In this document: piece by piece, positions 1 to 31,337 of the stretch
Numbering within the stretch: the stretch's first letter is position 1
How the letters are laid out: each line of letters begins with the position of its first letter
NCBI GenBank assembly: GCA_034620365.1
Contig: JAQGEQ010000299.1
Coordinates: 558,001 to 622,000, forward strand
DNA from: Pegea sp. RAD2-039
Taxonomy: Eukaryota > Chordata > Thaliacea > Salpida > Salpidae
Direction of reading: 5' to 3'
DNA length: 64,000 nt
The notes under the pieces: model-generated
What the model saw: only the letters and a program-made list of their open reading frames with translations
Told to the model about the DNA's origin: nothing
The model's database searches: none
Program-made: the position numbers and the translations under genes

Positions 1-3000
1 ATTTTTATTAAGCTTAAAGGAGTTAAGAGCTCATGGAATTATTAAACATTTTACTACAATGCTAAAATTCAAAGCAACGGTAGCTGACAAACACACTTGT
101 GAGGTACTAACTGCTGATAGTAGTACTCAACTAATTGAAAGAAATATCAAAATGGAAACTCTCTTTGTGCCGAAAGTAGTGAAGCCAGGCTTGAGTTCTA
201 CTGCATTTGTAAGTCAAACCTATGAGAGTTTCTATCTAAATTTATTGCTGATATCATTCTTTGTTTTATTATTTATCAGATAAAAATTACAAAACATAAT
301 GGAGAACTACTGGCTGATGACGAAAGAGAAAGTCTGTCACTGGAAGTAAGCACAAGGTGAGCTTTCATAATATAAATCTTTACAAAAATCGTACCTTATA
401 TTAAATATATTACATAATTTCTTATAAGAAAATTGTAATTGTTTTTCTTACAACTTGAATTAAATGCTAAAAATACTTTATTTTTATTTTGAATAATTTT
501 ATTTAAGCTCAGTGATTGTGGAAGCTCCACGGTTAAATGTCCCAGCAAACGGGATCGTTCCTATAAGAATGGAAACTCCACTGAAAAGTAAATATTCTGG
601 GATTTCTGTTTCGGTAAAACAAGCTTTATCAGGCTTACATATTTGTTTTATTAAAAGTTATTTATTTAATCTAAAATTCATTTTTTAAAAAGTTTTCTTA
701 AACTATAACTTCAGATCTAACGATTATGAAGTGTTATAGAAATGGGATATTATAAATTGATGATTAAAATTTGTATTGTAAACCATTTTTCTTTCAAAAA
801 TGATTCAAGAATCTCTGTAGATAGCTAAGCTTGTTTTCTTTTCAGTACGAACTCAAAAACCTTCAAAATGAATCAATAGCAGATGATTCATTTTTCTCGG
901 ATATAGCCCTTTCATCTTCTGATTCTTTTTTGCAAATTTTCATAAATGAAACGCAAAAAGAACTAGGATCTGTAGCTAAGATGATAATTCGAACAACACA
1001 ACTTGTGAATCAGATTCAAGTTATGGTCAGTGAGTTGTACAGGATTCAATCATTTGATGATTTTTTTTATATTTATTTGGTTTGATTAAAACTCTTATGT
1101 TTAGAGTTTGGTTCATTGAAACAACAAAAGTTTTTATATTTTACTTCCATCATTTTCAGATTATGAACCGAGCTACGATAATTTCTACTAAAACACTCAA
1201 ATCCGAAGATGCTACAAACACTTTTGACTATTATCTCGACATCACTCTTGAAATGCAACCTTCTATCATTGTGTTGGCTTCCTATGTTCGAAATGATGGG
1301 GAGATTGTTGCTGACTATTCAACTATTACTGTGTCATTGCAACTTCAAAATAAAGTCAGTTTTATTGTTGTTATATTTGTTAGTTTAAAGTAATTGATTT
1401 ATTCTAAAATCCTTCTCAACTAAACTTTTAAACTTTACGTTTTGCTAGGTGGAAATTTTAACTTCGTCTACTTTGTTGGATGCTGGTGATCATATAACAA
1501 TCAGTATCGAAACTAATGCCCCAGGGTCATTTGTAGGTTTGAAAGCAGTTGATGAAAGTGTTCTTTTACTAAAAAGTGGAAATGATATTACAGAAAATAA
1601 GGTTTGTTTACTAATAGCTAAAAAGTTTTGATTTTTTCAGATTTCAAATTAATTAAATTAAATGCTAATAAAAACGATTTACATTTAAACATCATTTTAA
1701 ACTCTCACTTTTACAAACATCTCGATTTAAATTAAATTATATAAAATGATTCAATAATTTTCATACAAATTGATCCAAGTAAAATGTTTTTGTTCCATAA
1801 TTGCTTTACTACTGCCTACCAGGTATAAACATTTTTTATAGTTTAATTTAATAAAAGGCAACTGTGAAATTTTTTTACATAAACGTAATTTGATTAAGAA
1901 CGTTATAAGAATTATTATTAAGAAAGTAAACTAAAATAATTTTAAAATGGAAGCTTTATACCAAAAATATAATATATAATAATAATAATATAAGAAGTCC
2001 ACTGTTAAAGTATAAAAACTATAAATTCTTATAGAGCGTCTGCTCATAAAAATGAAATATTCTGACTTTGTGATTAGTTATTTCTAACAGTTCATTCTAA
2101 AACAGTTTTTGATAGTTTAATGAACAAATGTTAGATGATTTAATGTGTAGAAAAATAAATTCTTCGCATCTTACTCCAAAAATCAATTTTTAAAGCAATA
2201 TTAATAAGTAATTATAAATGTGTAAGAAATTTATGAGAAAAATTATTATTTAGATCAGGACAGAAATTGAAGAATACTCAAAAAATAAAGATTCATTCAG
2301 TTGGTGGTGGTGGTGGCCTATCCCATCAAGAGCTATGTTTTCAAGAGAGGTGGTTGATAATTTGAATGTAATTTTACTATCTGATGCTTGGCTGTATAGA
2401 CCAGAAGGTATTTGAAATTTTATTTTATTTTTAAAACCTGAGAAACTACTTACTGAAACAAAATAAAATTTTGATTCTTAAACTTACTTTAAAGGTTATT
2501 CGAGCGCAAACGCAAATGGCCCACCTAGTAGGTACTTCCTAGAAAATTCAGGAAAGACTCGAACCAATTTCCCGGAGACTTGGATTTGGATGGATGAAAC
2601 TACCAAGTAAACTATCAAATCTGTTTTACTCACAAATTCTTCAAGCTTTTTTCACAAACTAAATTATAACAAAATGCTGATATTGAAAGCTTAGCTTCAG
2701 GTTTTTTCTTGAGTTGAAAGGTACAGTTCTCAGAAAATTAATTTAACGAAATATTATAGAAATTTTTTAAATAATTTATATAAAAAGGCTAGTAAGAATG
2801 ATTTAATAAGAAAGTTTCTTATCTTAATTAGTGCAGACGGAAATGTTCAATACACAACTGTAGTACCAGACACTATTACTTCTTGGATTTTAAACGCTTT
2901 TTCTACCTCTGATGATCTCGGTATTGGGATAGCAGAAACCAAAAAAGTACAGTTTTCAGATTTTGTATGAATCTTACTTTAAAATTATTTACATTTTGCA

Positions 3001-6000
3001 ATAAGCCAATCAATACTATATATACTCATTATTGTATTAAATAATCAAAAAGTAAAAACAATAAATTGTCAAAAAGCATCAAGATAATGAGCAGAAGTAA
3101 TTTAATTGTAGAAGAAAAATGAAAATTTGTTGATATATAAACAAACTAATCGTGTATTTCAGCAAACTTTTAAAAGTTAATGTAAAGTATACTGTTATTT
3201 CTTCTTGAATTTTTTAAGAAATAAACTTCAATTTGTAAATCCAATTTTTACAGGTGACAGTTTTTAGGAACTTTTTTATAAGTTTTAACTTGCCATTAAA
3301 GATCACAAAAGGAGAAACTATCATTGTGCAAGCAGTTGTACATAATTATTTCAATTATTCAATAGAGGTAACAATAAGGATGAATATTATTACTAATTTT
3401 ACATATATCTAAATTCTCCCGGACAAAAAAATTTGCATTTTTATATTTTTTAAACTCTATATAATTAAAATCCTTGAAAAGGTATTAAGCAATTACTTAT
3501 TGAGATTGAATGTTTGACTTTTAGGCTTCGTTAAAGATATACCAAAGCGAACATTATAAACTTATCATTACTGGAAATGATACGGATCTTGGTGGAGATG
3601 AACAGCAGTTTCATATAAGAGCTGGTGACTCCTTTTCGGTTTCTTATCCTGTTCAGATAACATCACTAGGCGATGTAGATATTAAAGTAGAAGCACAAAC
3701 TGAAACAGCTTATGATGCAATGATTCGCACAGTACATGTAAAGGTTAATCTAAACATTTTTGTATTGTTTTAAGAAACTCTTAAAACTTTTAAATACTTC
3801 ATAATACAGTTTAACAGTGTGCAAGAAACGTTCTTATCAATGAATAATTGTTAAAGACTGTTTAGTTTATTAAATAATTTCGAACTTTTACACTAGCCTG
3901 AAGGAATTCAACAATGCTTTTCGGATTCTTTGTTAATCTATCGATCTGAAGAAGAAGAACCTACTACTAGAGGACAATTACAAATCAAAGTTCCTAATAA
4001 TCTAGTAGAAGGATCAGCTTCAGTGAAAGCATTTGTTTACGGTTTGTTTTTCAAGCTATAAAAAAGATATTTATTTATTTGATGAAATAGATGTTTGTAA
4101 AAAAAAACTCAGTGACTTCAAGCTAAACTGAAGATCTTATCTAGATTAAAGTATAAAATTAATATTACCCTAATAACTTTACTAATAAAACCACTTTTCT
4201 TGAAAAGTTTATAAATGAATTAAATCATAGAGTTGTAGGTGAGCTCAATTATAAAGTCATCATCTCTAAAAATAAACGTTTATCTAGCGATATGTTTGAT
4301 TGTTAAATTATTTAAGATCAATTAAATTTGCAAAGTTGCACATGTATAGGAGAAATTTTAGGGAACGCAGCTGAAAATCTTGGAAAATTATTAAGAGAGC
4401 CTACAGGTTGCGGTGAACAAAATATGGTCAGCTTTGCCCCGGATATCTTCATAACCTTATATCTGGAAAAATCGGGAAGTTTAACTTTACAAACACAGGA
4501 AAAAGCATATCGGCATTTTCTTAAAGGATATCAAAACCAATTAAGGTCGCTGAATGAAATGTTACTAAATTTAAATGCTTTTGTTATTTTGACTGAAATA
4601 TTTCTATGCATCAATATAAACTCTAATAGTTTTTTAGTTGAAAAGTGTATTTATATCTGATATCAATTCAGGTTTCAACATTACGATGGTTCTTTTAGTG
4701 CTTTTGGTTTATCTGATAGTTATGGAAGCTTATGGTTGAGTGCTTTTGTGCTCAAATGCTTCAAACATGCAACTTTACTTGAAGATGGAGTTGTTGATCA
4801 GCTAAATGATAAAATAGAACGAATAGAAAGATTCATATTAGAAAGTTATAATGTGACAGAAAATACATTCAAAGATTTAGGAAAAGTTTATGATAGATAT
4901 TTACAAGTAAGCTGACTGGTTATTCTCTATTCTTTTATTAGACTTCACTTCTAATGTTAAAAATCTGATATAAAAATGCTTTAATGATATGTTAAAATAA
5001 CTTGAGCTTCAATTGTCACCAGGGTGGAGTAAGCAGCCAGCTAACAATGTCTGCTTATGTTGCAATTGCTATTTTTGAATTACAACTACCTAATGAAAAT
5101 TCTGTGAGTAGAGTGGAAGCTTTCACAATGTAAGAGTTACCCTAAATATTTTCAGCATCTTCAATCAGTAGTGATGGAAGGCACTAAACTTTATTTAGAA
5201 GAACATTTAGAAGATATCATTGACAAACCATACGAAATAGCTCTTATTACGTATGCATTACATTTACTTAAAAGTGAAAGATCAGATGAAGCATTTCAAT
5301 ATTTGATGGAATTATCTACAAATGATGGTAAAGAAATATTACAAAATAATTTGAAGTGATTTATTGCTTTTTAAACTATTAGATAACACTTACCATCAAT
5401 AAGCTTAACAAAATAATTCTATTTAGTATTTAATAATATGATCTGTTGTATATGGTCATCGAATTAATTGATGTTTATTTAAAAATTAGGTTCAAATATT
5501 TATTGGCATGAAGAACAAGCTTCCTCTTCAACATTTAAACCAGAATTTGAATCTTGTTATATGATGCCAGCTTCAAAAGATGTTGAAATAACATCTTATG
5601 CTCTTCTTACAATAACATTAAGAAATGAAATTAATTTAGTTCCTCCTATACTTAAGTGGTTGATATCTAAACAAAATAGCTATGGAGGCTACAGTAACAC
5701 TCAAGTGAGTTCTAAAGATGCTTTTTTCAATGTATTACAAACTTTCAACTCTTAATTATGTTTTAATCCCTAAACTGGATATTTCATTTAGTTTTTTCTG
5801 TTTTTTACAAATTTAATCTCAGAGAATATGTCTAAATAACTTTGAATCTTTTGACTTGAATGCAATTTTTATGTCCAGGATACTGTCATAGCTGTTCAAG
5901 CAATTAGCTCAGCAGAATTATTCTCTAACAACAATTATTGAAAACCTTGCAATAAATTTTGATCAAAATGGAAATCAACAAGAAATAAACTTGAATCTTG

Positions 6001-8897
6001 AAAATATGGAAATTTTTCATCGTTTTGATGTAAGATATATGTGGTGTCAATATAACTTAAAATATAAATAAACCTATTAACTTGCTTTTTATTTAACTAT
6101 TTTACTGATTTGTATTTGTGTAACAGTTGCAAGCTACAAGTGGTTTTGTTGATATTGAAGCAAACGGTGTAGGGTTGGGAATTGTTCAACTTTCTGTTTG
6201 TTACAACATCAAAGAGTCTCCATATAAAGATTCTCCCTTTAATTGCACGAGAAATGTTACCGAAACTGGATTCGAAGACTTAGAGATTTTTTTTTGCTGC
6301 AGGTTTTACTATAAGACTGAAATTAATATCAAACTTCATAAACTTTCATTAAAAAACTTTTCCAATAATAGAATTTGTGGGTTTTGTATTGATTAAAAAG
6401 TCACATTTAAATTATTGTTGTTATGAAAATAATGTAATCAACCTTCGTTTTAGATGTCGAAATGGTTTATTCTTCTGTAAAAATCAAAGGTAATCCTTAC
6501 AACTCTGATATAATTAATTTCTTTTGTAGTCTGAAAAATAATGAAACAAATCCTACTGGTATGTTGTTATATGAACTTGAAATACCAAATGGGTTTGAGC
6601 TATCAGAGTTTGATGAAGGAATTTCATGGAATGGTCTCTCTAAGAAATCAGAAGTTTCAGAAGGAAGTTTCAACATATATTATGATGATGTTAGAGAAGT
6701 TTACTTTTATACAAACTCTAAACATTTTAATTTTTGATATTTCCTTAAAAATACAATCGAAACTTTGTTAAAATTGTTTTAATGAAATCTAGTATGAACA
6801 AAGATTATCTAAAAACATATCACTGATAGTACAAGTAGCTGATGGAGATTTCTTATGTGTTTTTAGTTGTTCCCAGACCAGGAAATTTGTAGCTTAGTGA
6901 AGTTTAAAAGAAAGGAACAAGTAGCAGCATCTAAACCTGTTTCAATCAAAGTTATCGATTACTATCAACCTGGTAATTAACTTCAACTTTATTAAAAGTC
7001 GCGTTTCTTTTACTGTAAGTATATTTTAGATCGTGTGTTTATCGAAGAATTTGCATTGAAAAATATGGAAAAGTCGACAGCATGTTCGGTATGCGAAGGA
7101 CTTTGTTTTGGATGTCCACGTAAGTTTAAATATTAACTTTTGAAAATTTATAATAGTGATACTTATGACATTGCATCTTTAATTATTCAACTCATTTACA
7201 GGAAGAATTGAATGGAGAAGTGATGAAAGTTGTTTGTCTTCATGTAAAGAACAAGTAATACAAATGGAAAAGTTTTGCATTGATTCAACAACTGAACAAA
7301 TTCTTGACATTTCACTTTGTGGAAGTGAGCCTGAAATAGTTAATTATACTTGTAACCATACTTTATTACCTGTTTGTCCAAGTAAGTCTAACAGTTTCAA
7401 TTTTGTTTTAAGATTTTTAGATATTTGTATTTCTAGCTAGGAACTTTGGAATGATTGAAGACTTTGAAAACATAAATGCTTTTCATATTTATCAAAGTTG
7501 TAAAAAACTGTATAGCGGCGAGCTTACATACAAAACATACGTTTCACCCAGTCTGCCAGGTATGTTGCTATTTCAATTTGCTGACATTTTGAAGTTGAAT
7601 TTTATTCATAGCACTTCGTGAAAGTTATCTTGATGATGCATCAATACTTTGTCATCTTGATGATAATCTTATCTCCCATGGAGGCTTCACTGTTTCGATA
7701 TTAGTCCATTTATCTTCAATTCCATCAAGCAGTCACACAAGAATATTTTCAATTGGGAAAACAGAGGCGAAACCATTTGTTGATTTCAAGATACAACGAT
7801 GGTTAGTCAGTTTTAGTATCCAGTCTTAAATGAAACTAATTTCATATAAACAGGGGGCGTAAAGATGCTAGGTTTTCTGTGAGTGCACGAGGAAAGAAAT
7901 ATATTACAAGAATTACAACCAAGAAAGTATTTTTTCCATATAGGTTTGCAAATCATGCCTTTATAAAAAATAATAAAAGTTAATTCTCTTTCCTTATCCA
8001 TTTGCTTTTTTAATTATTGTTTCAGCAATTTTCCAAAGTTTTCATTTTCTAAACTAAAATCTGCATGTTGGCTATTCAACATTTGAGCGAATATTATCAA
8101 TAACTTAAAAATGATTAAGATAATTTACTCATACTTATAAATATTTTGTTGATTTCTAATTATTGATGATGAAAACTTGTATGTTTTTAAAGGAGTTTCT
8201 TACAGTTATTTTAACGTATACACCATATAACTATTTTTTTAATTAAGAAGTTGTTTTATCATATTTGTACATCTTCGGAAATACAAGTGTATTTTATTTA
8301 ACTTGATTTACAAGCAGATTGAAAATATTACACAAACATCTTTTTTACAGAGATTGGATTGGTAGATGGGTTCATATAATAGCAACTTGGCATCCTTTAG
8401 TTGGAAACTCTGTTTTTGTTGATGGAATAAAACAAGGATGGTCATATATATCGAGATTTCCTTCTGCTCGAAGAGTTCCCTTCACTACACGAAATATTGC
8501 TGTTTTTGTTGGATCATCTTTAAGATCAAAAAATATTCCAAAAACAGGTAAGCTAAAATCTTTCATTATTTTTATTTATCAAAACTTTGAATATGATTTC
8601 TGGTTTCATCACAAAATTATTGTTATTTTAGTGTTTGATGGATATTTGACATCTCTGGTAATGTGGAATCAATCTTTAAGTGACCGACAATCTAGAGAAA
8701 CTTATAGATTTTATGAAAACCATTTAACAAAATCAAATGAAGAAGAAGCTCCTCTTTTGATAGCTCCCTATATGATGAAGTTTTTGACTGGATTAGATCA
8801 ACCGAAGTTTGATCATTGCTTCAAAAGAGAAATGAATGTGAAAGAGTTTTCTAAACTAAGTTGTGAAGCTAGGTTTCCGATTATAGAAGATTATTAA
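1..8897 (+). CDS. TEP1: thioester-containing (complement/alpha-2-macroglobulin-like) protein, 5'-truncated by the window and frameshifted
   Basis: Secreted thioester proteins trap proteases or tag surfaces covalently. Exons seen: <1-208, 280-356, 508-613, 846-1025, 1160-1354, 1449-1601, 2254-2407, 2495-2606, 2832-2946, 3254-3367, 3525-3743, 3897-4041, 4350-4545, 4672-4906, 5023-5103, 5156-5327, 5490-5704, 5879-6029, 6127-6302, 6454-6689, 6867-6972, 7030-7119, 7202-7381, 7437-7559, 7612-7801, 7854-7926, about 8319-8547, 8632-8897. In order they encode macroglobulin domains (AVDESV at about 1540), a bait segment, the FPETW motif (about 2570), a thioester domain with PTGCGEQN (about 4410), the receptor-binding-like domain, a Cys-rich/TSP1-like module and a LamG-like tail. 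TEP2 is a close tandem paralog. One extra base near 5936 puts TGA at 5939-5941 inside the thioester domain, and the C-terminus stops 13 residues before that of TEP2. This is either a recent pseudogene or a sequencing error. The junctions 6302/6454 and 7926/8319 are not resolved. Confidence 0.87.
1967..1995. repeat. Short imperfect TAA/TA-rich simple repeat
   Basis: A short run of AAT/TAA units lies in the long TEP1 intron at 1602-2253. The matching TEP2 intron (13923-14550) has only a remnant of it. This intron is also one of the less conserved stretches between the two paralogs. Confidence 0.6.
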
Positions 8898-10523: not shown

Positions 10524-13500
10524 ATGATGAAACTACTTCTCTTTTCTTTTGGACTGCTTTTTCTAACTTCAGTAGAATCCTTTCCGTAAGTAGTTAATTT
10601 CTTTTGAAAGGTTATTGTACCTCTAAAATATTTTCTAATTACTAAATAAAACTTTTGTAGCCAATATGCTGCTTATCTGCCACAGTATGTTCGTCAAGGC
10701 ATGGATGTTAAGTTCACCATCCAACTAATAGACGTTCCAAACTCAATCGTGCTTACAAGCAACTTCACTTCTAAAAAAAACAGTTTCACTCTTATTAATC
10801 AACAAGAAATAGCGCCAGGTATATCAAAGATTTGAACAAATTTAGTGTGCTGTTATAAAAGTAACATAAGATTATCAAAATAGCTTTAGAAATCTATTTA
10901 GTCTTTATATCAATCTCTTTATAATGAATTTTGAATTAGTTACTTTAAGTTGATTTTATTGTTATTATTTTTATAAAGTAAATAATTATTGTTTTAAAAA
11001 TAAAAATTCTAAATACTGTAATAGTAATTTTCAAAAAAAGGATTTTATAATCTGCTTTTTTTGATTAAATAAATAAACTTGAATTGATAAGCATAACATT
11101 AGTTGTTATTTGTTGTTGGGGTTAATGAATGTTTTGAATTGTAAATAAAACTAATGCAAATATTTACAAAATTAGAAATAGGCTAAATAAAAACAATTAA
11201 AGCTAAGTCTGGAGTTGGTCACTTTATAGGTTCAATAAAAAATTTATACTTTTATTTATTTATTTATCGATTATTTATATTTATGTTTCCAGGAAAAGAG
11301 GCCCTGATCAACTTAGGACAGGTGAAAATCATTTCAAACGATTTATTGCTATTGTAGAAGATGATAGAAGCAATATAAGTTAATTAAAATATCTTAATAC
11401 CCTTTAACCATTTCAAGATTCCTCATAACTTTACTAAAAGAGGTTACAAGGATATAAGCTTGAGCTTTGAAGCAAGAGACAACATCAACGGAAGTCTAAT
11501 CTTTCAAAACTCAACATCAGACATTAATTTAGATTATAAAGCTACTAGTATATTCATTCAAACAGATAAGGCAATTTATCAAGCAGGACAGACTGGTAGG
11601 ATTTGTTTGTACAAAAATGTCTGTTTTACTTAACTTGATTGAACTTAACTTTTTCTAAACAGTCAAGTTTCGAATCATTACTTTATCGCCTTTCATGAAA
11701 CCTTCAAATCTTCCCATCACATACAAGGTGGTTGACGGAATTGGAAATGTTCTTTTATTGAGAAAACATCAAGTTCCTAGTAAAGGTGTAATCACTGATC
11801 AATATGAGATACACAGTGATATAAAAAAAAGTCTATGGCGTATTGAAGTCAAAGATGAGATTACTGTGAGTTAGAGATAAATAAAAACAAAATTGTTTGT
11901 GAAAAACTATTTATAGAATTAAATTTATATTATTTTTGAAATTAAGGGTGAAACAGAAACTTATGGCTTCGAAATCGATGTTTATAAACTTCCAAAGTTC
12001 AAAGTACAAGTTGTTTGTGAACCTTACGTTTTATCGAGTGCTGATGGATTTCAAGTCAAAGTAAAAGCCATGTAAGAACTGATAAAATTCAAAAAGTTTT
12101 ACATCAAAGAAATTTTTAACAATTCTTAATCCTCTAAATGTAGGTACACCTATGGAAAGCCTGTTAACGGGAAAGCAACTCTGTATGTTAGTCCACCATA
12201 CTCGCGTATTACAAGTTTCTCTAAAACTGATCAGGTAAGTGTTGAAAACAATAAATAAAAGAATTTTTTAATGTGATTTTAATCAACATCTTATAAATAG
12301 CAATTCAATGGATCAACAACATTCTTTATAAGTTTGGAGGAGTTAAGAGCTGATGGAATTATTGAATATGATACTACAAAGCTAAATTTCAAAGCAACAG
12401 TAGCTGACAAACACACTCGTGAGTTGCTAACTGCTGATAGTAGTACTCAACTAATTGAAAGAAATATCAAAATGGAAGCTCTCTTTGTGCCGAAAGTAGT
12501 GAAGCCAGGCTTGAGTTCTACTGCATTTGTAAGTCAAACCTATGAAAGTTTCTATTTAATTTTATTGCTGATATCTTACTTTGTTTTATTATTTATCAGA
12601 TAAAAATTACAAAACATAATGGAGAACTACTGGCTGATGACGAAAGAGAAAGTCTGTCACTGGAAGTAAGCACAAGGTGAGCCTTTATAATATAATTCTT
12701 TACAAAAAATCCTACCTTATATTAAATATATTACATAATTTCTTATATGAAAAGTGTAATTGTTTTTCTTACAACTTGAATTAAATAATAAAAATACTTT
12801 ATTTTTATTTTTAATAATTTATTTAAGCTCAGTGATTGTGGAAGCTCCACGGTTAAATGTCCCAGCAAACGGGATCGTTCCTATAAGAATGGAAACTCCA
12901 CTGAAATATAACTATTCTAGGATTTCTGTTTCGGTAAAACAGGTTTTATCAGGCTTACATATTTGTTGGATTAAAAATTATTTGTTTAATCGAAAATTCA
13001 TTTTAAAATAAGTTTTCTTAAACTATAACTTCAGATCTAACGATTATGAAGTGTTATAGAAATAGAAATAATAGAAATTGATGATTAAATCTTGTATTGT
13101 AAACCATTTTTCTTTTAGAAATGATTCAAGAATCTCTGTAGATAGCTAAGTATGTTTTCTTTTCAGTACGAACTCAAAAACCTTCAAAATGAAACTATAG
13201 CACATCGTTGGCTTTCGTCCGATATAGCTCTTTCACCTTCTGATTCTTTTATGCAAATTTTCATAAATGAAACGCAAAAAGAACCAGGAACTGTAGCTAA
13301 GATGATAATTCGAACAACACAACTTGTGAATCAGATTCAAATTATGGTCAGTGAGTTGTAAAGGATTCAATCATTTGATCGTTCTTTTTATAGTTATTTG
13401 GTTTGATTAAGTCTCTTATGTTTAGAGTTTGGTTCATTGAAACAACAAAAGTTTTTATATTTTACTTCTATCATTTTTAGATTATGAACCGAGCTACGAT

Positions 13501-16500
13501 AATTTCTACTAAAACACTTAAATCCGAAGATGCTACAAACACTTTTGACTATTATCTCGACATCACTCATGAAATGCAACCTTCTATCATTGTTTTGGCT
13601 TCCTATGTTCGAAATGATGGGGAGATTGTTGCTGACTATTCAACTATTATTGTGTCTTTGCAACTTCAAAATAAAGTCAGTTTTATTGTTGTTATTTTTG
13701 TTAGTTTAGAGTAATTGATTTATTCTAAAATCCTTATAAACTAAACTTATAAACTTTACGTTTTGCTAGGTGGAAATTTTGACTTCGTCTACTTTGTTGG
13801 ATGCTGGTGATCATATAACTATCAGTATCGAAACTAATGCCCCAGGAGCATTTGTAGGTTTGAAAGCAGTTGATGAAAGTGTTCTTTTACTAAAAAGTGG
13901 AAATGATATTACAAAAAATAAGGTTTGTTTGCTAATAACTAAAAGGTTTAGTAGATTTCAAATTTATTAGATTAGCTGCTGATCAAAACGCTTAACAATC
14001 AAATAACAATTTACCAGCTCACTTTTACAAACATCTTTATTTAGATTAATTTATTGAAAATGCTTTTTAGAAACCTTTTAATACAGTTTAACCCAAATAA
14101 CATGTTCTTGTTCCATAATTGCTTTACTACTTCCAACTAATTATAAAGATTTTTGAAATTTTAATTTAATAAGAAGCTTAGAGCTATGATTTTACCACAT
14201 AAAAGTGAGTAGCTAAGCTTTTCAAGAAAATTAACTAAAATAATTATAAAATTGGAGCTATGCAGCAAAATATGTAGTAATAATGATATAAAAAGTCGAC
14301 TTTTAAAGTATTTAAACTATAACTTCTTATAAAGTGTCTGCTCATAAAAATGAAATATTGACTTTTAGACTAGTTATTTCAAACAGTTCACTCTAAAACA
14401 GTTTTTTATAGTTTAGTGAACAAATGTTAAATGATTTAATGTGGTAGAAAAATAAATTCTTAGCATCTTACTCCAAAAATCAATTTTTAAAGCAATTTAA
14501 ATAAGTAATTATAAACGTGTAAAAAAAGTAAGAGAACAATTATTCTTTAGATCAGGACAGAAATTGAAGAATACTCAAAAAAAAAATATTCATTCAGTTG
14601 GAGGTGGTGGAGGCATATACCATCAGGAGCTATGTTTTCAAGAGAGGTGGTTGATAATTTGAATGTAATTTTACTATCTGATGCCTGGCTGTATGTACCA
14701 GAAGGTATTTGACGTTTTATCTTCTTTATTTTTAAAACAAGATTAACTACTTAATTAACGACTTCTGGAAACAAAATATATTTTTGATTCTAAACTTTAT
14801 TTAGACTTAAACTTACATTAAAGATTATTGGAGGCCAGAAATACATGATATTGTGTTTGGATATGACTTGATGGAATACATAGATCCTGGAAGATCAAGG
14901 ATTCGAACCAATTTCCCGGAGACTTGGATTTGGATGGATGAAACGACCAAGTAAACTATCAAAATTGTTTTACTCACAAATTCTTCAAGCTTTTTTTGAA
15001 CTAAATTATAACAAAATGCTGATATTGAAAGCTTAGCTTCAGGTTTCTTCTTGAGTTGAAAGGCAAACTTCATAAAAAATTAATTTAAAGAAATATTATA
15101 GAAATTGTTTAAATAATTTTTTATAAAAAGGCTAGTAAGAGTGATTTAATAAGAAAGTTTCTTATCTTAATTAGTGCAGAAGGAAATGTTCAATACACAA
15201 CTGTAGTACCAGACACTATTACTTCTTGGATTTTAACTGCTTTTTCTACTTCTGATGACCTCGGTATTGGGATAGCAGAAACGAAAAAAGTAAAATTTTC
15301 AGATTTTGTATAAATCTTACTTGAAAATGATTTACATTTTGCAATTAGCCAATCAATAGTATATATAATCAATTTTGAACTAAACAATTCAATGTAAAAA
15401 CAATTATTTGTCAAAAATTATGAGTAAAAGTAATTTAATTGTAGAGGAAAATTGAAAATTTGTTGAAATTTTAACAAACTAATCGTGTATTTCAGCAAAC
15501 TTTTAAAAGTTAATGTAAACTATACTGTTATTTCTTCTTGAATTATTTAAGAAGTAAACTTCAATTTGTAAATCCAATTTTTACAGGTGACAGTTTTTCG
15601 GAACTTTTTTATCAGTCTTAACTTGCCATTAAAGATCACAAAAGGAGAAACTATCATTGTGCAAGCAGTTGTACATAATTATTTCAATTATTCAATAGAG
15701 GTAACAATAAGGATGAATATTATTACTAATTTTACAAACATCTAAATTCTCCCTCTGCTGCTTTTTTATATTTTTTAAACTCTATAAAATTAAAATCCTT
15801 GAAAAGGTTTTAATCAAAAATATTTATTGAGATTGAATGTTTAACTTTTAGGCTTCGTTAAGGTTATACGAAAGCGAACATTATAAACTTATCATTATCG
15901 GTAATGATACTGATCTTGCTGGAGATGAACGGCGGTTTCATATAAGAGCTGGTGACTCCTTTTCGGTTTCTTATCCTGTTCAGATAACATCACTAGGCGA
16001 TGTAGATATTAAAGTAGAAGCACAAACTGAAACAGCTTATGATGCAATGATGCGCACAGTACATGTAAAGGTTAATCTAAACATTTTTGTATTGTTGTAA
16101 GAAACTCTTAAAACTTTTAAATACTTCATAATACAGTTTAACAGTGTGCAAGAAACGTTCTTATCAATGAATAATTGCTAAAGACTGTTTAGTTTAATAA
16201 ATAATTTCAAACTTGTACACTAGCCTGAAGGAATTCAACAATGCTTTTCGGATTCTTTGTTAATTCATCGATCTGAAGAAGAAGAACCTACTACAAGAGG
16301 ACAATTGCAAATCAAAGTTCCTAATAATGTAGTAGAAGGATCAGCTTCAGTGAAAGCATTTGTCTACGGTTTGTCTTTCAAGCTATAAACAGCTATTTAC
16401 TTATTTGATGCAATAGATGTTTGTAAAAAAAAACTCAGTGACTTCAAGCTAAACTGAAGATCTTATTTAGATTAAAGTATAATATTAATATTACCCTAAT

Positions 16501-19500
16501 AACTTTACTAATAAAACCACTTTTCTTGAAAAGTTTATAAATGAATTAAATCATAGAGTTGTAGGTGATCTCAATTATAATGTCATCATCTCTAAAAATA
16601 AACGTTTATCTAGCGATATCTTAAATTGTTAAATTATCCAACGTTTTATATATAAACTACATTGGGAAAAATTAAATTTGCAAAGTTATACATGTATAGG
16701 AGAAGTCTTAGGGAACGCAGCTGAAAATCTTGGAAAATTATTAAGAGAGCCCACGGGTTGCGGTGAACAAAATATGGTCAGCTTTGCCCCGGATATCTTC
16801 ATAACCTTATATCTGGAAAAATCGGGAAGTTTAACTTTACAAACACAAGAAAAAGCATATCGGCATTTTCTTAAAGGATATCAAAACCAATTAAGGTCGC
16901 TGAATGAATTTGTTACTAAACTTAAGTGCTTTTCTTATTTTGACTGAAATATTTTGCTGCATCAATATAAACTCTAATAGTTTTTTAGTTGAAAAATGTA
17001 TTTACATCTGATATCAATACAGGTTTCAACATTACGATGGTTCTTTTAGTGCTTTTGGTTTATCTGATAGTTATGGAAGCTTATGGTTGAGTGCTTTTGT
17101 GCTCAAATGCTTCAAACATGCAACTTTACTTGAAGATGGAGTTGTTGATCAGCTAAATGATAAAATAGAACGAATAGAAAGATTCATATTAGACAGTTAT
17201 AATGTGACAGAAAATACATTCAAAGATTTAGGAAAAGTTTATGATAGATATTTACAAGTAAGCTGATTGGTTAGTCTCTATTCTTTTATTAAACTTCACT
17301 TCTAATGTTAAAAATCTGATATAAAAATGGTTTAATGATATGTTAAAATAACTTGAGCTTCAATTGTCACCAGGGTGGAGTAAGCAGCCAGCTAACAATG
17401 TCTGCTTATGTTGCAATTGCTATTTTTGAATTACAACTACCTAATGAAAACTCTGTGAGTAGAGTGGAAGCTTTCACAAAGTAAGAGTTACCCTAGATAT
17501 TTACAGCATCTTCAATCAGTAGTGATGGAAGGCACTAAACTTTATTTAGAAGAACATTTAGAAGATATCATTGACAAACCATACGAAATAGCTCTTATTA
17601 CGTATGCATTACATTTACTTAAAAGTAAAAGATCAGATGAAGCATTTCAATATTTGATGGAATTATCTACAAATGATGGTAAAGAAATATCACAAAATAA
17701 TTTGAAGTGATTTATTGCTTTTTAAACTATTAGATAACACTTACCATCAATAAGCTTAACAAAATAAATCTATTTAGTATTTAATAATATGATCTGTTGT
17801 ATATAGTCATCGAATTAATTGACGTTTATTTAAAAATTAGGTTCAAATATTTATTGGCATGAAGAACAAGCTTCCTCTTCAACATTTAAACCAGAATTCG
17901 AATCGTGTTATATGATGCCAGCTTCAAAAGATGTTGAAATAACATCTTATGCTCTTCTTACAATAACATTAAGAAATGAAATTAATTTAGTTCCTCCTAT
18001 ACTTAAATGGTTGATATCTAAACAAAATAGCTATGGAGGCTATAGTAACACTCAAGTGAGTTCTAAAGATGCTTTTTTCAATATATTTACAAACTTTCAA
18101 CTCTTAATTAAGTCTTAATCTCTAAACTGGATAAATTAATATAGTTTTTCTGTTTTCTACAACTTTATATCTCAGAGAATATGTCTAATTAACTTTGAAT
18201 CTTTTGACCTGAATGCCATTTTTATGTCCAGGATACTGTCATAGCTGTTCAAGCAATTAGCTCAGCAGGATTATTCTCTAACAACAATATTGAAAACCTT
18301 GCAATAAGTTTTGATCAAAATGGAAATCAACAAGAAATAAACTTGAATCTTGAAAATATGGAAATTTTTCATCGTTTTGATGTAAGATATATGTGATGTC
18401 AATACAACTAAAATATAAATAAACCTATTAACTTGCTTTTTATTTAACTATTTTACTGATTTGTATTTGTGTAACAGTTGCAAGCTACAAGTGGTTTTGT
18501 TGATATTGAAGCAAACGGTGTTGGGATAGGAATTGTTCAACTTTCTGTTTGTTACAACATCAAAGAGTCTCCATATAAAGATTCTCCCTTTAATTGCACA
18601 AGAAATGTTACCGAAACTGGATTCGAAGACTTAGAGATTTTTTTTTGCTGCAGGTTTCACTATAAGACTGAAATTAATTTCAAACTTCATAAACTTTCAT
18701 TAAAAAACTTTTCCAATAATAGAATTTGTGGGTTTTGTATTGATTAAAAAGTCACATTTAAATTATTGTTGTTATGAAAATAATGTAAACAACCTTCGTT
18801 TTAGATGTCAAAATGGTTTATTCTTCTGTAAAAATCAAAGGTAATCCTTACAACTCTGATATAATTAATTTCTTTTGTAGTCTGAAAAATAATGAAACAA
18901 ATCCTACTGGTATGTTGTTATATGAACTTGAAATACCAAATGGGTTTGAGCTATCAGAATTTGATAAAAGAATTTCATGGAATGGTCTCTCTAAGAAATC
19001 AGAAGTTTCAGAAGGAAGTTTCAACATATATTATGATGATGTTAGAGAAGTTTGCTTTTATACAAACTCTAAACATATTTTTGATATTTCCTTAAAAATA
19101 CATTTGAAACTTTGTTAAAATTGTTTTAATGAAATCTAGTATTAACAAAGATTATCTAAAAACATATCACTGAGAGTACAAGTAGCTGATGGAGATTTCT
19201 TATGTGTTTTTAGTTGTTCCCAGACCAGGAAATTTGTAGCTTAGTGAAGTTTAAAAGAAAGGAACAAGTAGCAGCATCTAAACCTGTTTCAATCAAAGTT
19301 ATCGATTACTATCAACCTGGTAATTAACTTCAACTTTATTAAAAGTCGCGTTTCTTTTACAGTAAATATGTTTTAGATCGTGTGTTTATCGAAGAATTTG
19401 CATTGAAAAATATGGAAAAGTCGACAGCATGTTCGGTATGCGAAGGACGTTGTGTTGGATGTCCACGTAAGTTTAATTATTAACTTTTGAAAATTTATAA

Positions 19501-21248
19501 TAGTGATACTTATGACATTACATCTTTAATTATTCAACTCATTTACAGGAAGAATTGAATGGAGAAGTGATGAAAGTTGTTTGTCTTCATGTAAAGAACA
19601 AGTAATACAAATGGAAAAGTTTTGCATTGATTCAACAACTGAACAAATTCTTGATATTTCACTTTGTGGAAGTGAGCCTGAAATAGTTAATCATACTTGT
19701 AACCATACTTTATTACCTGTTTGTCCAAGTAAGTCTAACAGTTTCAATTTTGTTTTATGATCTTCAAACTTTTCCATTTCCAGGTAGAAACTTTGGAATG
19801 ATTGAAGACTTTGAAAACATAAATACTTTTCCTTTTTTCCGAGAATGTAAGAAACTGTATAGCGGCGAGCTTACATACAAAACATACGTTTCACCCAGTC
19901 TGCCAGGTATGTTGCTATTTCAATTTGCTGACATTTTGAAGTTGAATTTTATTCATAGCACTTCGTGAAAGTTATCTTGATGATGCATCAATACTTTGTC
20001 ATCTTGATGATAATCTTATTTCCCATGGAGGCTTCACTGTTTCGATATTAGTCCATTTATCTTCAATTCCATCAAGCAGTCACACAAGAATATTTTCAAT
20101 TGGGAAAACAGAGGCGAAACCATTTGTTGATTTCAAAATACAACGATGGTTAGCTGGTTTTAATATCCAGTCATAAATGAAACTAATTTCTTATAAACAG
20201 GGGGCGTAAAGATGCTAGCTTTTCTGTGAGTACACGAAGAACGAAATATTTTACAAAACTTAAATCAAAGAAAGTATTTTTTAAAATATGTTTGCAAATC
20301 AAGCCTTTATAAAAAACAATAAATGTTATTTCTCTTTCCTTATCTATTTGCTTTTTTTAATAATTGTTTCAGTAACTTTCCAAAACTTTCATTTTCTAAA
20401 CTAAAATCTGCATGTTGGCTATTCAACATTTGAGCGAATATTATCAATAACTTAAAAATGGTTAAGTTAATTTACTCATACTTATAAATATTTTGTTGAT
20501 TTCAAACTATTGATGAGAAAGACATTTATGTTTTAAAAGAAGTTTTTACAATTTTTTCATATTATCGTACTTTTACATCTTCGGAAATATAATTGTATTT
20601 TGTTTAACTTGATTTACAAGTAGATTGAAAATATTACACAAACATCTTTCTTACAGAGATTGGATTGGTAGATGGGTTCATATAATAGCAACTTGGCATC
20701 CTTTAGTTGGAAACTCTGTTTTTGTTGATGGAGTAAAACAAGGATGGTCATATATATCGAGATCTCCTTCTGTTCGAAGAGTTCCCTTCACTACACGAGA
20801 TATTGCTGTTTTTGTTGGATCATCTTTAAAATCAAAAAAGAGTAAAAAAACAGGCAAGCTAAAATCTTTCATTATTTTTATTTATTAAAACTTTGAATAT
20901 GATTTCTGGTTTCATCACAAAATTATTGTTATTTTAGTGTTTGATGGGTATTTGACATCTCTGGTATTGTGGAATCAATCTTTAAATGTCCAACAATGTA
21001 GAGAAACTTATAGATTTTACGAAAACCATTTAACAAAATCAAATGAAAAAGAAGCTCCTCTTGTGATAGCTCCCTATATGATGAAGTTTTTGACTGGATT
21101 AGATCAGCCGGAGTTTGATCATTGCTTCAAAAAAGAAATGAATGTGAAAGAGTTTTCTGAACTAAGTTGTGAAGCTAGGTTTCCGATTATAAAAGATTAT
21201 TATTTTTATTTTGATGAACCAGTGCGTCAAACATTTTATGAATATTAA
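10524..21248 (+). CDS. TEP2: thioester-containing protein with TSP1-like and LamG-like C-terminal extension
   Basis: Predicted secreted complement/A2M/CD109-family protein of about 1,790 residues. It begins with a signal peptide (MMKLLLFSFGLLFLTSVES). Exons: 10524-10585, 10661-10818, 11293-11321, 11418-11595, 11663-11865, 11947-12071, 12144-12234, 12301-12528, 12600-12676, 12838-12933, 13167-13346, 13481-13675, 13770-13922, 14551-14704, 14824-14950, 15175-15289, 15587-15700, 15852-16070, 16224-16368, 16700-16895, 17023-17257, 17374-17454, 17507-17678, 17841-18055, 18232-18381, 18478-18653, 18805-19040, 19214-19319, 19377-19466, 19549-19728, 19784-19906, 19959-20148, 20201-20273, about 20625-20853, 20938-21248. 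Family marks are FIQTDKAIYQAGQT (MG2), AVDESV, FPETW, PTGCGEQN, DGSFSAFG and the receptor-binding-like domain. The residue that is His in C3 is Asp here. A Cys-rich/TSP1-like module and a LamG-like domain follow. Two junctions (18653/18805, 20273/20625) are uncertain, and exon 34 uses a GC donor. Confidence 0.92.
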
Positions 21249-23341
21249 CTGTTTAATTGTTTGTAAAATGTTTAGAGTGGTAGAATTTTGTAAATAAATC
21301 GTTCTTATTCACTTTGGAATAGAAATTGATAATCATTTATAATAACTCAAAGTTTGTTAAGATTTGTTGATATTTTAGAAATATATATTGACAAGCAAAT
21401 ACAGTGAATTAAATTAAGTTGGCAAGGATGTTTTTTTTAACAACAATGATGATTTCTATATTATTAAGGCTATTCACTGAAAATTGTCTAAGATGTTAAA
21501 GCATCTTAAGATTTAGGACAAAGTTGTATTTTGAAAGAAAATAGAAAAATCATTTTTACATTAATTGAATTAAACATTAAAAATAAAGTATCATTTTTTT
21601 AGCTAATACTTTTATATTTTTTATCAAATTAGAATGATTTTTAAAAATCATAAATATTAAATTTAAATATAAAATCTCAAATATTTTTTTTTACAAATCT
21701 TTTAATCAAAATCAAATTTGTAGAAAAATTCAAAGAAATATTTTATATCTCAATGCATTACTTACGTCAAGAAACTAACAGTTTCAAGTTTATTAAGAAT
21801 TATATATAGTGGCAGGCATTGCAGTAAATGTTTAGCTTTATATTTAAATCTATTAAAGCTACTTGTTTGTAAATTATAAATGAACTATTTTCAGGTAGGC
21901 TTTAGTAAACTTTATATTTTGTTTTAAATTTCATTAGATTTTGATTTACAGAAACCTTGCTTAAATATGGAGATTTCTGTTTGGAAGTTTTAGTAAAGTT
22001 TGCTTTGATGCATATGAAACAAAATAAAAATCTAAATATTCAAATTTTTCAAGGAATAAAATCTTTCTATGAACTCTTCTTAAATTTAGTTTATGGTTGT
22101 AGGTGTAAGACTTGAACTCCCTTTTTTGTATAAATTTAGAATTCAAAACAAAATAGATTTGCAAAATACTAACTCAACGATCAGTTTGTTGCATATTTAC
22201 AAAATTCTAAAAACAATTATTTTCGAACTGATCACTTACAACAAATATCACTTAACCAATTATCAAACCCATAGCTTTCACTTTTATTGATTGATTGCTG
22301 CTTAATGTCGTTTACTGTTAAGAGTTTCCGTTCTTTCTGATCACGGACCTATGATGTAGAGAATATGACCCCAAATGAATATGAATTAACAATTTCACAA
22401 AGTATTATGTGTTTGGTAATCTTATGTGATCAGTAACAGGAAATCTTATCTTGTTTTTTCTCAGACTGAATGTTTATTTGTTTAGTTAGCTGTAGGTGAA
22501 TATTTTCTTTATAAAGTTGTATTATTCAAACATCAAATTAGTAATAAATGTATTTAAATTTTTGATTTAAGTAATTATAACTTTGTATAAATGTCCTTCG
22601 TGGTAGGAAACAATATTTTCAGAGTTTGTTAGAAAAAAACTTTTTCTATAAATTTTTATTAATAGCTTAAAATGATGTTTTTTTCTCTTTGACAATGTAC
22701 TCTGAAAACTATTTAAATGAAAAAAGGGGTGGCAGCTTTTTAGAAAAGTTCAAGTTACTTTAAAAATTTCATTTAGAACATAGTTAGATATTTAAGGAGT
22801 AGAACTTCTTATTTTTTATATTTTCATTTATTACTGTTTTAGTTATCCTTTTATTTCAACAACTATGAGTCATAAGTTTTTAGTATTGAATGCTACTTAT
22901 GATAGCAAATCTGTGAACTGCTTTATTAGTTGCTCAACGAAAATTTGTCTAAGCTACTAACTAGGTAATTTTTAACTATAAGCATGAATGAAAAAGTGCA
23001 AAAATGTTTCGCGCTGCCGGTTTTGAAACAATAGTAGTAAACATTTATAAGCAAATAACTGTTTTTAGAAAGTAATTGCTTGTAATTAGAATTATATGGT
23101 ATAATTTTTATTGAAATTAAGTATATAAGGCGCTTATCTAAATTTCAATTATAGAAAGAAGTATTAGTTGCTTTGTATAAAGTTGGAGCTTATTATGTAA
23201 TATTCAGTTTTAAATTTGTTTTTTAAAGTTGTTAAAGCATACTAATTCAATCATTAAAAAATTATTATTTTATATTAGTCTAAGTGTTTTTATGATATTT
23301 AAAAATTTTATTTACAAAACATTTTCGTGAATCATATTTCG
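21249..23341. other. Noncoding flank between TEP2 and stefin 1
   Basis: No gene seen. The stretch is almost the same as 26440-28610. It includes the older TEP-flank segment (21690-21960), and the sequence just before stefin 1 presumably holds that gene's promoter. The small open frames here are not supported as genes. Confidence 0.6.
21293..21298 (+). promoter_or_regulatory. Candidate poly(A) signal of TEP2
   Basis: AATAAA lies 45 bases after the TEP2 stop codon. The same context recurs after the duplicated terminal exon near 26484. Confidence 0.6.
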
Positions 23342-24919: not shown

Positions 24920-26130
24920 AATGTTTTATAATCTTGAAAAAGAATTGGAATATTATTAACATTTTATATCTTTCTTATATATTCATCCTATGCACATACA
25001 TTTTAATACTTCATATATATGCAGTTCAATTCATTCCTTATATAGTTGCTTCTAAAGTGTTTATTTTCTCAATTATCACTTGTTAATTATTAAGAGAAAA
25101 ATTTCTCAGATGTTATATAAGTAATTAGTAAAGTGATTTTGATGAAATTATTATTTCAAATATCCAAAAGTAACAAGTATTAAATTTTATACATATAACA
25201 TTCTACCAATTGTTCAAACATAAACGCTTTTAATGACACTTTAAACTAATCATTTTTCGAATTATCTATATTCATTTTCTTAAACACTTTTGTCTATTTG
25301 TATTTCATTTTTGTCATATATCTCGTTTCTTTATGATTATCAGTTTATGATACTAAGAAATCATTTATTAGACTTTACAATGCTTAATCACTATACTTAA
25401 TCAAATAAACGATTTAATAATGTAGAGCTAATTTTTTTACTGAAGCAGAACAAAATTTCAAGTGAAAAATATTTCACATTTTTTTCATTTACTTCCTCTT
25501 TTCATATTTTTTATTAATTATTCTAGTTGTCTAAGGGCTCATAAATTCATGTGACTTGATTTAAAGGATGTTATATGATATCATCACTTCCTATAGGTTT
25601 GCAAGTTTGATTTGCTGTAAATAGAATTAAAAAACATTTTATAAATTGCCAGAAAAACTTTTTGTTAGCAAAACGAATATATTTCAACTGATTTACTAAA
25701 TATTTAGATTTCAAAACTCAAACTGTGAATAAAATACTTGTTTATAATTCTGTAATTTCCTAATATCGATGGAAAAATTAGATAAAAATTATCTTTAAAA
25801 CTATTTAGACTAAAATATATAAACTAAGAAACATTCAAAACTGTTCAGTAATAACTTTTCCTGATCATAATTTTGGACAAACAAACTGAAGGTCTTTTAT
25901 GGTTAACTAATACGATAAAAGCATGTCAGTTTGTATCGATTTGTACAGGAGAAACTTCTATCTTTCAAAAAATCAGAAAACCTTTTCTTGAGACAGCTTT
26001 TTCTAGAAAATAGAAATGTTTTAGTAAAAATTTCACATGTTTTCATTAGTGTTACAATTCTTTCATTATTTTTATTTATTAAAATTTTGAATATGATTTC
26101 TGTTTCATCACAAAATTATTGTTATTTTAG
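24920..26130. other. Noncoding DNA after stefin 1, with the duplication junction
   Basis: No gene seen. The sequence matches 30201-31337 closely. The junction between the two 5.2-kb units falls at about 26057-26059. Confidence 0.6.
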
Positions 26131-26439
26131 TGTTTGATGGGTATTTGACATCTCTGGTATTGTGGAATCAATCTTTAAATGTCCAACAATGTAGAGAAAC
26201 TTATAGACTTTACGAAAACCATTTAAGAAAATCAAAAAAAGAAGAAGCTCAGTTTGTGATAGCTCCCTTTTATGATGAAGTTTTTGACTGGATTAGATCA
26301 GCTGAAGTTTGATCATTGCTTCAAATAAGAAATGAATGTGAAAGAGTTTTCTGAACTAAGTTGTGAAGCTAGGTTTCCGATTATACAAGATTATTTTTAT
26401 TTTGATAAACCCGTGCGTCAAACATTTTATGAATATTAA
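26131..26439 (+). pseudogene. Duplicated terminal LamG exon of TEP2 (orphan, frameshifted)
   Basis: The exon keeps its acceptor (attttag before 26131) and starts with VFDGYLTSLVLWNQSL, as in TEP2. One extra T in the tract near 26268 (gctccctttta against gctccctata) shifts the frame, and it ends at a TGA at 26310-26312. The original stop position is recognisable at 26437-26439. No other TEP exon precedes it in this unit, so it is a by-product of the 5.2-kb duplication. It might still serve as an alternative 3' terminal exon of TEP2, but this is not supported here. Confidence 0.88.
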
Positions 26440-30200: not shown

Positions 30201-31337
30201 AATGTTTTATAGTCTTGAAAAAGAATTGGAATATTATTAACATTTTATATCTTTTTTATATATTCATCCTATGCACATACATTTTAATACTTCATATATA
30301 TGCAGTTCAATTCATTCCTTATATAGTTGCTTCTAAAGTGTTTATTTTCTCAATTATCACTTGTTAATTATTAAAAAACAAATTTCTCAGATGTTATATA
30401 AGAAATTAGTAAAGTGATTTTGATGAAAGTATTATTTCAAATATCCAAAAGCAACAAGTATTAAATTTTATACATATAACATTCTACCAATTGTTCAAAC
30501 ATAAACGCTTTTAATGAAACTTTAAATTAATCTTTTTTCGAATTATCTATATTCATTTTCTTAAAAACTTTTGTCTATTTGTATTTCATTTTTGTCATAT
30601 ATCTCGTTTCTTTATGATTATCAGTTTATGATACTAAGAAATCATTTATCAGACTTTACAATGCTTAATCACTATACTTAATCAAATAAAAGATTTAATA
30701 ATGTAGAGCTAATTTTTACTGAAGCAGAACAAAATTTCAAGTGAAAAATATTTCACATTTTTTTATTTACTTCCTCTTTTCATATTTTCTATTAATTATT
30801 TTAATTGTCTAAGGGCTCATAAATTCATGTGACTTGATTTAAAGGATGTTATATGATATCATCACTTCCTATAGGTTTGCAAGTTTGATTTGCTGTAAAT
30901 AGAATTAAAAAACATTTTATAAATTGCCAGAAAAACTTTTCGTTAGCAAAACGAATATATTTTAACTGATTTACTAAATATTTAGATTTCAAAACTCAAA
31001 CTGTGAATAAAATACTTGTTTATAATTCTGTATTTTTCTAATATCGATGGAAAAATTAGATAAAAATTATCTTTAAAACTATTTAGATTAAAATATATAA
31101 ACTAAGAAACATTTAAAACTGTTCAGTTATAACTTTTCTTGATCCTAGTTTCGGAGAAACAAGCTAAAGGCTTATTATGGTAAACTAAAACGATAAAAGC
31201 ATCTCAGTTTGTATCGATTTGTACATGAGAAACTTCTATCTTTCAGAAAATCAGAAAACCTTGGTCTTGAGACAGCTTTTTCTAGAAAATAGAAATGTTT
31301 TAGTAAAAAGTTTCGCATATCTTCGTTAGTGTTACAA

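Follow-up and report, generated by a model that had tools for sequence, protein, structure and literature searches.

A LamG tail marks a CD109-like clade of thioester proteins in Pegea and other tunicates

Complement C3, C4 and C5 have their thioester chemistry and core in common with the thioester proteins (TEPs). An activated thioester reacts with anything near it, and its aiming is a central question of complement. Here we describe two genes, TEP1 and TEP2, in a window of 64,000 nucleotides from the salp Pegea sp. RAD2-039 (assembly GCA_034620365.1, contig JAQGEQ010000299.1, here C249:558001-622000; the searched genome set comprised 105.7 Mb in 387 contigs), whose exons continue past the receptor-binding domain (RBD) into a four-cysteine segment, a TSP1-like module and a LamG domain. 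The two differ from C3, C4 and C5 in that neither ANATO nor NTR/C345C was matched when TEP2 and the TEP1 tail were scanned with Pfam at E up to 1. The CD109 proteins of other animals have the core domains and the four-cysteine segment in common with TEP1 and TEP2, but they stop at or shortly past the cysteines, where many are strongly hydrophobic, and PF13385 is absent from the domains precomputed for the named proteins from outside the tunicates among the matches listed. CPAMD8 resembles TEP1 and TEP2 in combining an alpha-macroglobulin with an extra domain, although this domain is unlike TSP1-LamG, being of the Kazal type (PF07648 in the CPAMD8 rows among the matches listed).

Insect TEPs are described (PMC5489563) with a variable bait-like segment and a thioester, which they share with TEP1 and TEP2, and with a 'cysteine signature' tail, which is presumably the same thing as the four-cysteine segment; no PF13385 appears in the arthropod rows among the matches listed. 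For tunicates, the Ciona alpha-2-macroglobulin NP_001027688 is tabulated in the accessible part of PMC2935394, and that of PMC5465252 mentions Ciona alpha2-macroglobulin genes, with thioester, laminin, thrombospondin and CD109 not found there; likewise, laminin and thrombospondin were not found in the accessible text of PMC8960428 and PMC9363628. In a full-text literature search, with most subscription papers outside its reach, no tunicate TEP was described as having a LamG or TSP1 tail among the titles, abstract starts and passages covered.

The exons of TEP1 and TEP2 were spliced by hand, with the donors after exons 10, 11 and 28 chosen by judgement, and the exon numbers of TEP1, whose start lies outside the window, were borrowed from TEP2. 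The resulting features, in window positions, are the following.

2..8897, plus strand: TEP1, exons 8-36 (hand splicing), with a frame break in exon 25
4350-4545, plus strand: TEP1 thioester exon 20 (hand splicing)
6867..6972, plus strand: TEP1 exon 29, end of the receptor-binding domain (hand splicing; Pfam A2M_recep 22.5 bits against a cut-off of 21.7)
7030..7119, plus strand: TEP1 exon 30, four-cysteine segment CSVCEGLCFGCP (splicing and cysteine pattern comparison)
7202..7381, plus strand: TEP1 exon 31, TSP1 module (hand splicing and profile match)
7437..7559, plus strand: TEP1 exon 32, TSP1-to-LamG linker (hand splicing)
7612..7801, plus strand: TEP1 exon 33, first LamG exon (hand splicing, Pfam, splice aligner)
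7854..7943, plus strand: TEP1 exon 34, LamG (hand splicing, splice aligner)
8351..8547, plus strand: TEP1 exon 35, LamG (hand splicing, splice aligner)
8632..8897, plus strand: TEP1 exon 36, LamG end, C-terminal extension and stop (splicing, splice aligner)
10524..21246, plus strand: TEP2, 36 exons, with a signal-peptide-like start by eye (hand splicing, Pfam)
14551..14950, plus strand: TEP2 exons 14-15, bait-position segment (exon 15 at 14824-14950)
16700-16895, plus strand: TEP2 exon 20 with GCGEQN (hand splicing)
19377..19728, plus strand: TEP2 exons 30-31, cysteine segment and TSP1 module (hand splicing, copy alignment)
19784..19906, plus strand: TEP2 exon 32, linker (hand splicing, copy alignment)
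19959..21246, plus strand: TEP2 exons 33-36, LamG exons, in-frame 34-35 join not found
26102..26394 (C249 584k), plus strand: further tail remnant (exon 36 and flanking intron), frame-broken

Exons 29-36 of TEP1 form one open frame of 413 amino acids in which all joins are GT-AG, the splice aligner gave the same tail as hand splicing, and the order past the RBD is four cysteines, TSP1, linker, LamG and the stop at 8897. The interval 7030..8897, singled out for the tail in an earlier note on this DNA, is exact, 7030 being the first base of exon 30 and 8897 the last of the TAA that closes exon 36. That note had both proteins extending past the RBD, which holds for the open TEP1 tail, whereas the LamG exons of TEP2 are present but unjoined as modelled, because no in-frame join of exon 34 (20201-20289) to exon 35 was found and the frame is lost after exon 34; the TEP2 model also uses a GC donor after exon 35. 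Upstream of the tail, exon 25 of TEP1 (5879-6029) is one base longer than in three near-identical copies, and the frame is broken by this base, which may be either a genuine frame break or an assembly error. TEP2 exceeded the Pfam cut-offs for MG2, MG3, A2M_BRD, A2M, TED (E 4.7e-75) and A2M_recep, and the GCGEQN thioester motif was read in TEP1 and TEP2 alike. In the splice models, exon phases agree across the tail junction in TEP1, TEP2 and their paralogues. The proposal that TEP core, TSP1-like module and jelly-roll LamG domain lie in one gene is borne out.

The LamG assignment is supported by Pfam and by fold, and that of the TSP1 module by profile search. Of the two Pfam families suggested earlier for the tail, Laminin_G_3 was found over its cut-off in TEP1 (27.8 against 27.6 bits), whereas with E up to 1 allowed no TSP1 model matched the tail of the window copy. 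With E up to 10 allowed, all 11 tails compared have a Laminin_G_3 match (the best at 1.6e-11), and in relatives it reaches 41.6-59.7 bits (P0004-P0008) and 35.3 bits (P0012). By fold comparison, the LamG domain is a concanavalin-A-like jelly roll whose matches include PTX3 (19 and 23% identity by Foldseek, 20% by VIA-align), and Pfam Pentaxin scores 22.5 bits in P0004 against a cut-off of 25. TSP1_ADAMTS was matched by one of the 11 tails (E 0.022), and the best TSP1 score in Pfam, 17.1 bits for TSP1_ADAMTS in P0005, lies under the cut-off of 23.8. A profile of the 11 tail modules searched against PDB had thrombospondin-1 as its top three matches (E 6.2e-4, 2.5e-3 and 2.7e-3), and the tryptophan and six cysteines of the module stand in TSP1 order. 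A relation to pappalysin was dropped, the match to PDB 8sl1 (E 1.3e-3) consisting of two weak stretches, one of them in the LamG part of 8sl1; a search with just the cysteine-TSP1 part gave no match.

Relatives were sought with the TED-to-tail region of L039, a full-length paralogue model, with scoring confined to the 7989 candidates that had the most words in common with it, and with the best 120 of 325 matches taken. Among these, six proteins (P0004-P0008 and P0012) carry PF13385 in their precomputed domains: two from Clavelina lepadiformis, one each from Ciona intestinalis and Styela clava, and two from jgi contigs, with Clavelina, Ciona and Styela representing three orders of Tunicata. Identity between the query and these tailed proteins is 29-40% (coverage 65% in Ciona and 95-98% in the others), and the full-length Clavelina, Ciona and Styela proteins present RBD, cysteines and LamG in that order. 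The strict motif C..C.{2,3}C..CP occurs in 7 of the 123 retrieved proteins, namely those with PF13385 plus P0010, a truncated Ciona model. Because the named Clavelina (two), Ciona and Styela proteins share the architecture, the tail is not unique to the Pegea genome; a search for the same arrangement in related genomes had been proposed in the earlier note. Its statement that no described family has such a tail falls, since public tunicate proteins carry it with PF13385 precomputed.

The Ciona intestinalis 'alpha-2-macroglobulin homologue precursor' (P0008) has MG, bait, A2M, TED with GCGEQN, RBD, cysteines, TSP1-type module and LamG as in TEP1 and TEP2, and the 'CD109 antigen-like' proteins of Clavelina and Styela (P0006, P0012), together with Clavelina P0005, have the same domain order and belong to the same clade as the window proteins. 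The Styela TED has GCGEQT where the window, Ciona and Clavelina proteins have GCGEQN, and its TSP1 is visibly shortened, whereas those of Ciona and Clavelina give weak Pfam TSP1 matches; the window genes differ from all three in their frame breaks. A search with the tail found P0001 (73% identity over 82%), on a jgi contig of 1663 bases, where exons 31-36 (TSP1 and LamG) lie in one intron-free frame from which 7 residues of TEP1 at the exon 34/35 junction are absent. A LamG domain on a separate transcript with its own start is countered for the relatives by this single frame and by the full-length tunicate proteins, and a separate LamG gene was dropped on the same grounds. P0002 was found at 24% identity over 59% of the window tail, and P0003 was reached by the tail profile search; the tails of TEP1 and its same-genome paralogues are 25-31% identical. 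The agreement with P0001, with these paralogues and with the tailed tunicate and jgi proteins exceeds what chance would give. P0002 is itself a stand-alone protein of 382 aa: a start that looks by eye like a signal peptide is followed by a short Cys module and LamG, and its identity to the P0004 tail is 26%.

Phylogenetic placement relied on the core region without the tail, in a careful tree of 43 rows that included 33 of the 123 retrieved proteins; the long branches own_C1 and own_C278e were omitted from it and kept in a quick tree, TEP1, L035 and L037 are in neither tree, and the careful tree has no vertebrate C3 row. The 13 tailed rows group with the same-genome C21 and C177 in a single clade (100/100), which the quick tree recovers with the two long rows (17 rows, 100). 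This family falls on a CD109 side of 32 rows (100/98), apart from A2M, PZP and CPAMD8 when rooted on the chosen outgroup. The LamG tail therefore marks a single, well-supported CD109-like clade. The tail label needs two changes on the careful tree against a shuffled mean of 11.4; a single gain followed by a loss in the C21/C177 ancestor would fit, though the count does not separate gain from loss. A sister relation to vertebrate CD109, with support of 94 in the quick tree, was unresolved in the careful tree and was not retained. The same-genome C10 row groups with CPAMD8 (100/100); its locus L029 (C10:281500-291499) holds an alpha-macroglobulin gene resembling CPAMD8, in which a Kazal-like stretch was recognised by eye.

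Models were obtained for at least 15 loci in the Pegea genome, counts being lower bounds: 11 tailed, 3 with the cysteine exon but TSP1-LamG not found, and the CPAMD8-like gene on C10. The 11 loci with TSP1-LamG exons lie on C1, C77, C278 (four) and C249 (231k, 522k, 538k, TEP1 and TEP2), and further tail remnants occur on C249 at 530k, 546k and 584k, the last within the window. Frameshifts are marked in L030, L031, L037, L038 and L041, whereas the models L032, L034, L036 and L039, all 5'-partial, have neither frameshift nor stop. The thioester motif was found in 11 of the 14 same-genome rows and not in L030, L037 and L038, although L030 (C1:5238500-5248499) is a paralogue that carries the tail. 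At the presumed catalytic-His site of C3 (residues read by eye), Asp stands in TEP2, L040, L041 and three non-tunicate rows shown, His in L031, L033, L039, Ciona and Clavelina, Ser in L034-L036 and Gln in L032. On C278, identity between L034 and L035 is 98% in A2M-TED but 77% in MG, a difference suggestive of exchange among copies, and L034 and L036 are 34% identical in linker and LamG against 74% in A2M-TED.

Among the close copies of the C249 cluster (TEP1, TEP2, L040 and L041), divergence is greatest in exon 15 (75-81% identity plus 8-23 gap columns), followed by exon 34 (85-86%), with introns at about 92% and most other exons at 90-100%; lower values in L041 concern exons 32 (88.6%) and 27 (88.9%), and exon 10 of L040 is only partly covered. 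Unique nonsynonymous/synonymous (N/S) changes were 12/18 in TED (ratio 0.19), 32/19 in MG (0.51), 13/6 in the linker (0.58), 5/1 in cysteine-TSP1, 34/9 in exons 14-15 (0.99) and 61/16 in LamG (1.13, p 0.79 against neutral), the contrast between LamG and TED being significant (Fisher p 1.7e-4). On these ratios, neither exons 14-15 nor LamG seem to be under constraint in the cluster. Positive selection on LamG was dropped: pairwise pN/pS is 1.01-2.55 by exon, but the unique-change counts fit neutrality. The window copies thus look partly decayed, while diverged paralogues and ascidians keep the tail.

Of the 123 retrieved proteins, 67 have a loose four-cysteine pattern close to the C-terminus; many of these are Haliotis isoforms, and the carriers include CD109s from molluscs, coral, amphioxus, acorn worm, fish and frog. 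Because this pattern is common to many CD109s, the cysteine segment is old and the TSP1-LamG part is the addition; the earlier note, which counted the segment among the added modules, is not supported on this point. As a crude measure standing in for a GPI (glycosylphosphatidylinositol) predictor, the best 15-residue mean hydropathy near the C-terminus was computed. A hydrophobic end follows the cysteines in amphioxus (2.42), acorn worm (2.69) and fish CD109 (2.61), whereas the six tailed full-length proteins give -0.41 to 1.17 and TEP1 0.27; by this measure, a strongly hydrophobic GPI-type end is not present in the tailed proteins. Means of at least 2.0 were obtained for 22 of the 123 proteins, and at least three of these bear names other than CD109.

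We consider it probable, though far from certain, that TEP1 and TEP2 are soluble CD109-like proteins in which a TSP1-LamG docking module has replaced the GPI-type end; the domain order, the single clade, the thioester motif and the lack of a strongly hydrophobic end are computed results. The protein would be secreted, a protease would cleave the variable bait segment (exons 14-15), and the exposed thioester would couple to a nearby nucleophile, while the tail may dock the molecule on an extracellular surface, whether self matrix, tunic, blood cell or foreign glycan, so that its position would be set by tail binding and not by a membrane anchor. Several results weigh against this reading. Haliotis CD109, which has no tail, also has no strongly hydrophobic end (1.03), so loss of that end is not tied to the tail. 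C278b, C21 and C177 have the cysteine exon, but downstream splice alignment gave only scattered pieces and no TSP1-LamG, and tails for them were dropped: the C177 scores (49-69) resemble the shuffled control (42-69, one control each), and those of C21 and C278b (93-128 against 36-68) have the RBD end and cysteine exon as their source, one cysteine being replaced in C21. Like TEP2, L040 and L041 have no plain in-frame exon 34-35 join, which the aligner bridged with a 5-base exon; LamG is neutral in the cluster, and the invariant tail residues include no acidic residue suggestive of a calcium site. Furthermore, the Ciona cDNA of Hammond, Nakao and Smith (2005; doi 10.1016/j.molimm.2004.09.017, cited in PMC12939704) is reportedly, by title, a 'glycosylphosphatidylinositol-anchored alpha-2-macroglobulin', contrary to the hydropathy result, and from its name P0008 would be the protein of that cDNA.

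Decay of the C249 cluster, window copies included, with tails that have lost their function, is a serious if not the expected alternative: frames are broken in TEP1 exon 25, TEP2 exon 34 and L041, the exon 34-35 problem recurs in L040 and L041, tail remnants lie at three more C249 places and LamG is neutral. However, TED is still constrained and the TEP1 tail open, single-base breaks may be assembly errors, the frameshift-free paralogues L032, L034, L036 and L039 persist, and P0001, in a close relative, kept its tail. The tail might instead do no more than tether a protease trap to extracellular matrix or tunic, or oligomerise it there, recognising no target; TSP1 and LamG are common matrix modules and the tail occupies the site of the hydrophobic end in many CD109s, and we regard this as possible but unlikely. 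Somewhat more doubtful still is a one-chain opsonin, in which a LamG/pentraxin-like domain would bind microbial or foreign-cell glycans and the thioester mark the surface. The PTX3 fold matches, the sub-threshold Pentaxin score, the expansion to 11 tailed loci and the low L034/L036 identity in linker and LamG point that way; on the other side, a common fold reveals no ligand, pN/pS of the L034/L036 tail is 0.75 and not above 1 (with pS high too, 0.62), and unique-change counts make LamG neutral in the C249 cluster. That the fusion is an annotation artefact from two adjacent genes, as the stand-alone P0002 might suggest, is very improbable given the phase-consistent exons over the junction, the joined exons of the P0001 contig and the same order in Ciona, Clavelina and Styela.

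Under the favoured reading of a docking module in place of the anchor, a CD109 clade across three ascidian orders, with its anchor seemingly replaced by two binding-type domains, can be put to the test in Ciona, which is kept in the laboratory and belongs to the vertebrates' sister group. Should the tail, and the lack of a hydrophobic end, prove true in the cell, the picture of a GPI-anchored Ciona A2M homologue changes. The TED search of the genome gave 37 matches, all on C1, C10, C21, C77, C177, C249 and C278, and NTR matches were confined to C6, in netrin-like surroundings, and C11. Because TED and NTR matches fall on separate contigs, a C3-like gene was not detected in this six-frame search, which ignored introns and did not use C3 itself as a query. 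One may speculate, with considerable reserve, that early in tunicates CD109 swapped its membrane anchor for TSP1-LamG and so became a soluble, self-targeting protein, joining a pentraxin/LamG-like recognition domain to the covalent marking chemistry, and that in this species, for which no C3-like gene was detected, the expanded set may perform complement-like opsonisation.

Elsewhere in the genome, a family-2 glycosyltransferase (GT2) match at C14:72156 (61.5 bits) accompanies a GH6 match at C14:74494 (27.5 bits against a cut-off of 27); GT2 and GH6 are the two halves of tunicate cellulose synthase (CesA; PMC7464555, PMC6523144), and together with the tunicate homologues this pair makes a tunicate genome very likely. 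A second, weaker GT2 match at C14:130829-131248, 58 kb from the CesA-like gene, is perhaps a second copy. Rfam and tRNA scans of the 64-kb window gave 0 matches. Beside the TEP genes, window positions 21725-31057 hold a 5.27 kb tandem duplication with blocks 88-99% identical; an ion channel exon lies at 39673-39990 (Ion_trans, E 7.5e-7) and an exon of an XK-related protein at 60852-61271 on the minus strand (E 5.2e-18).
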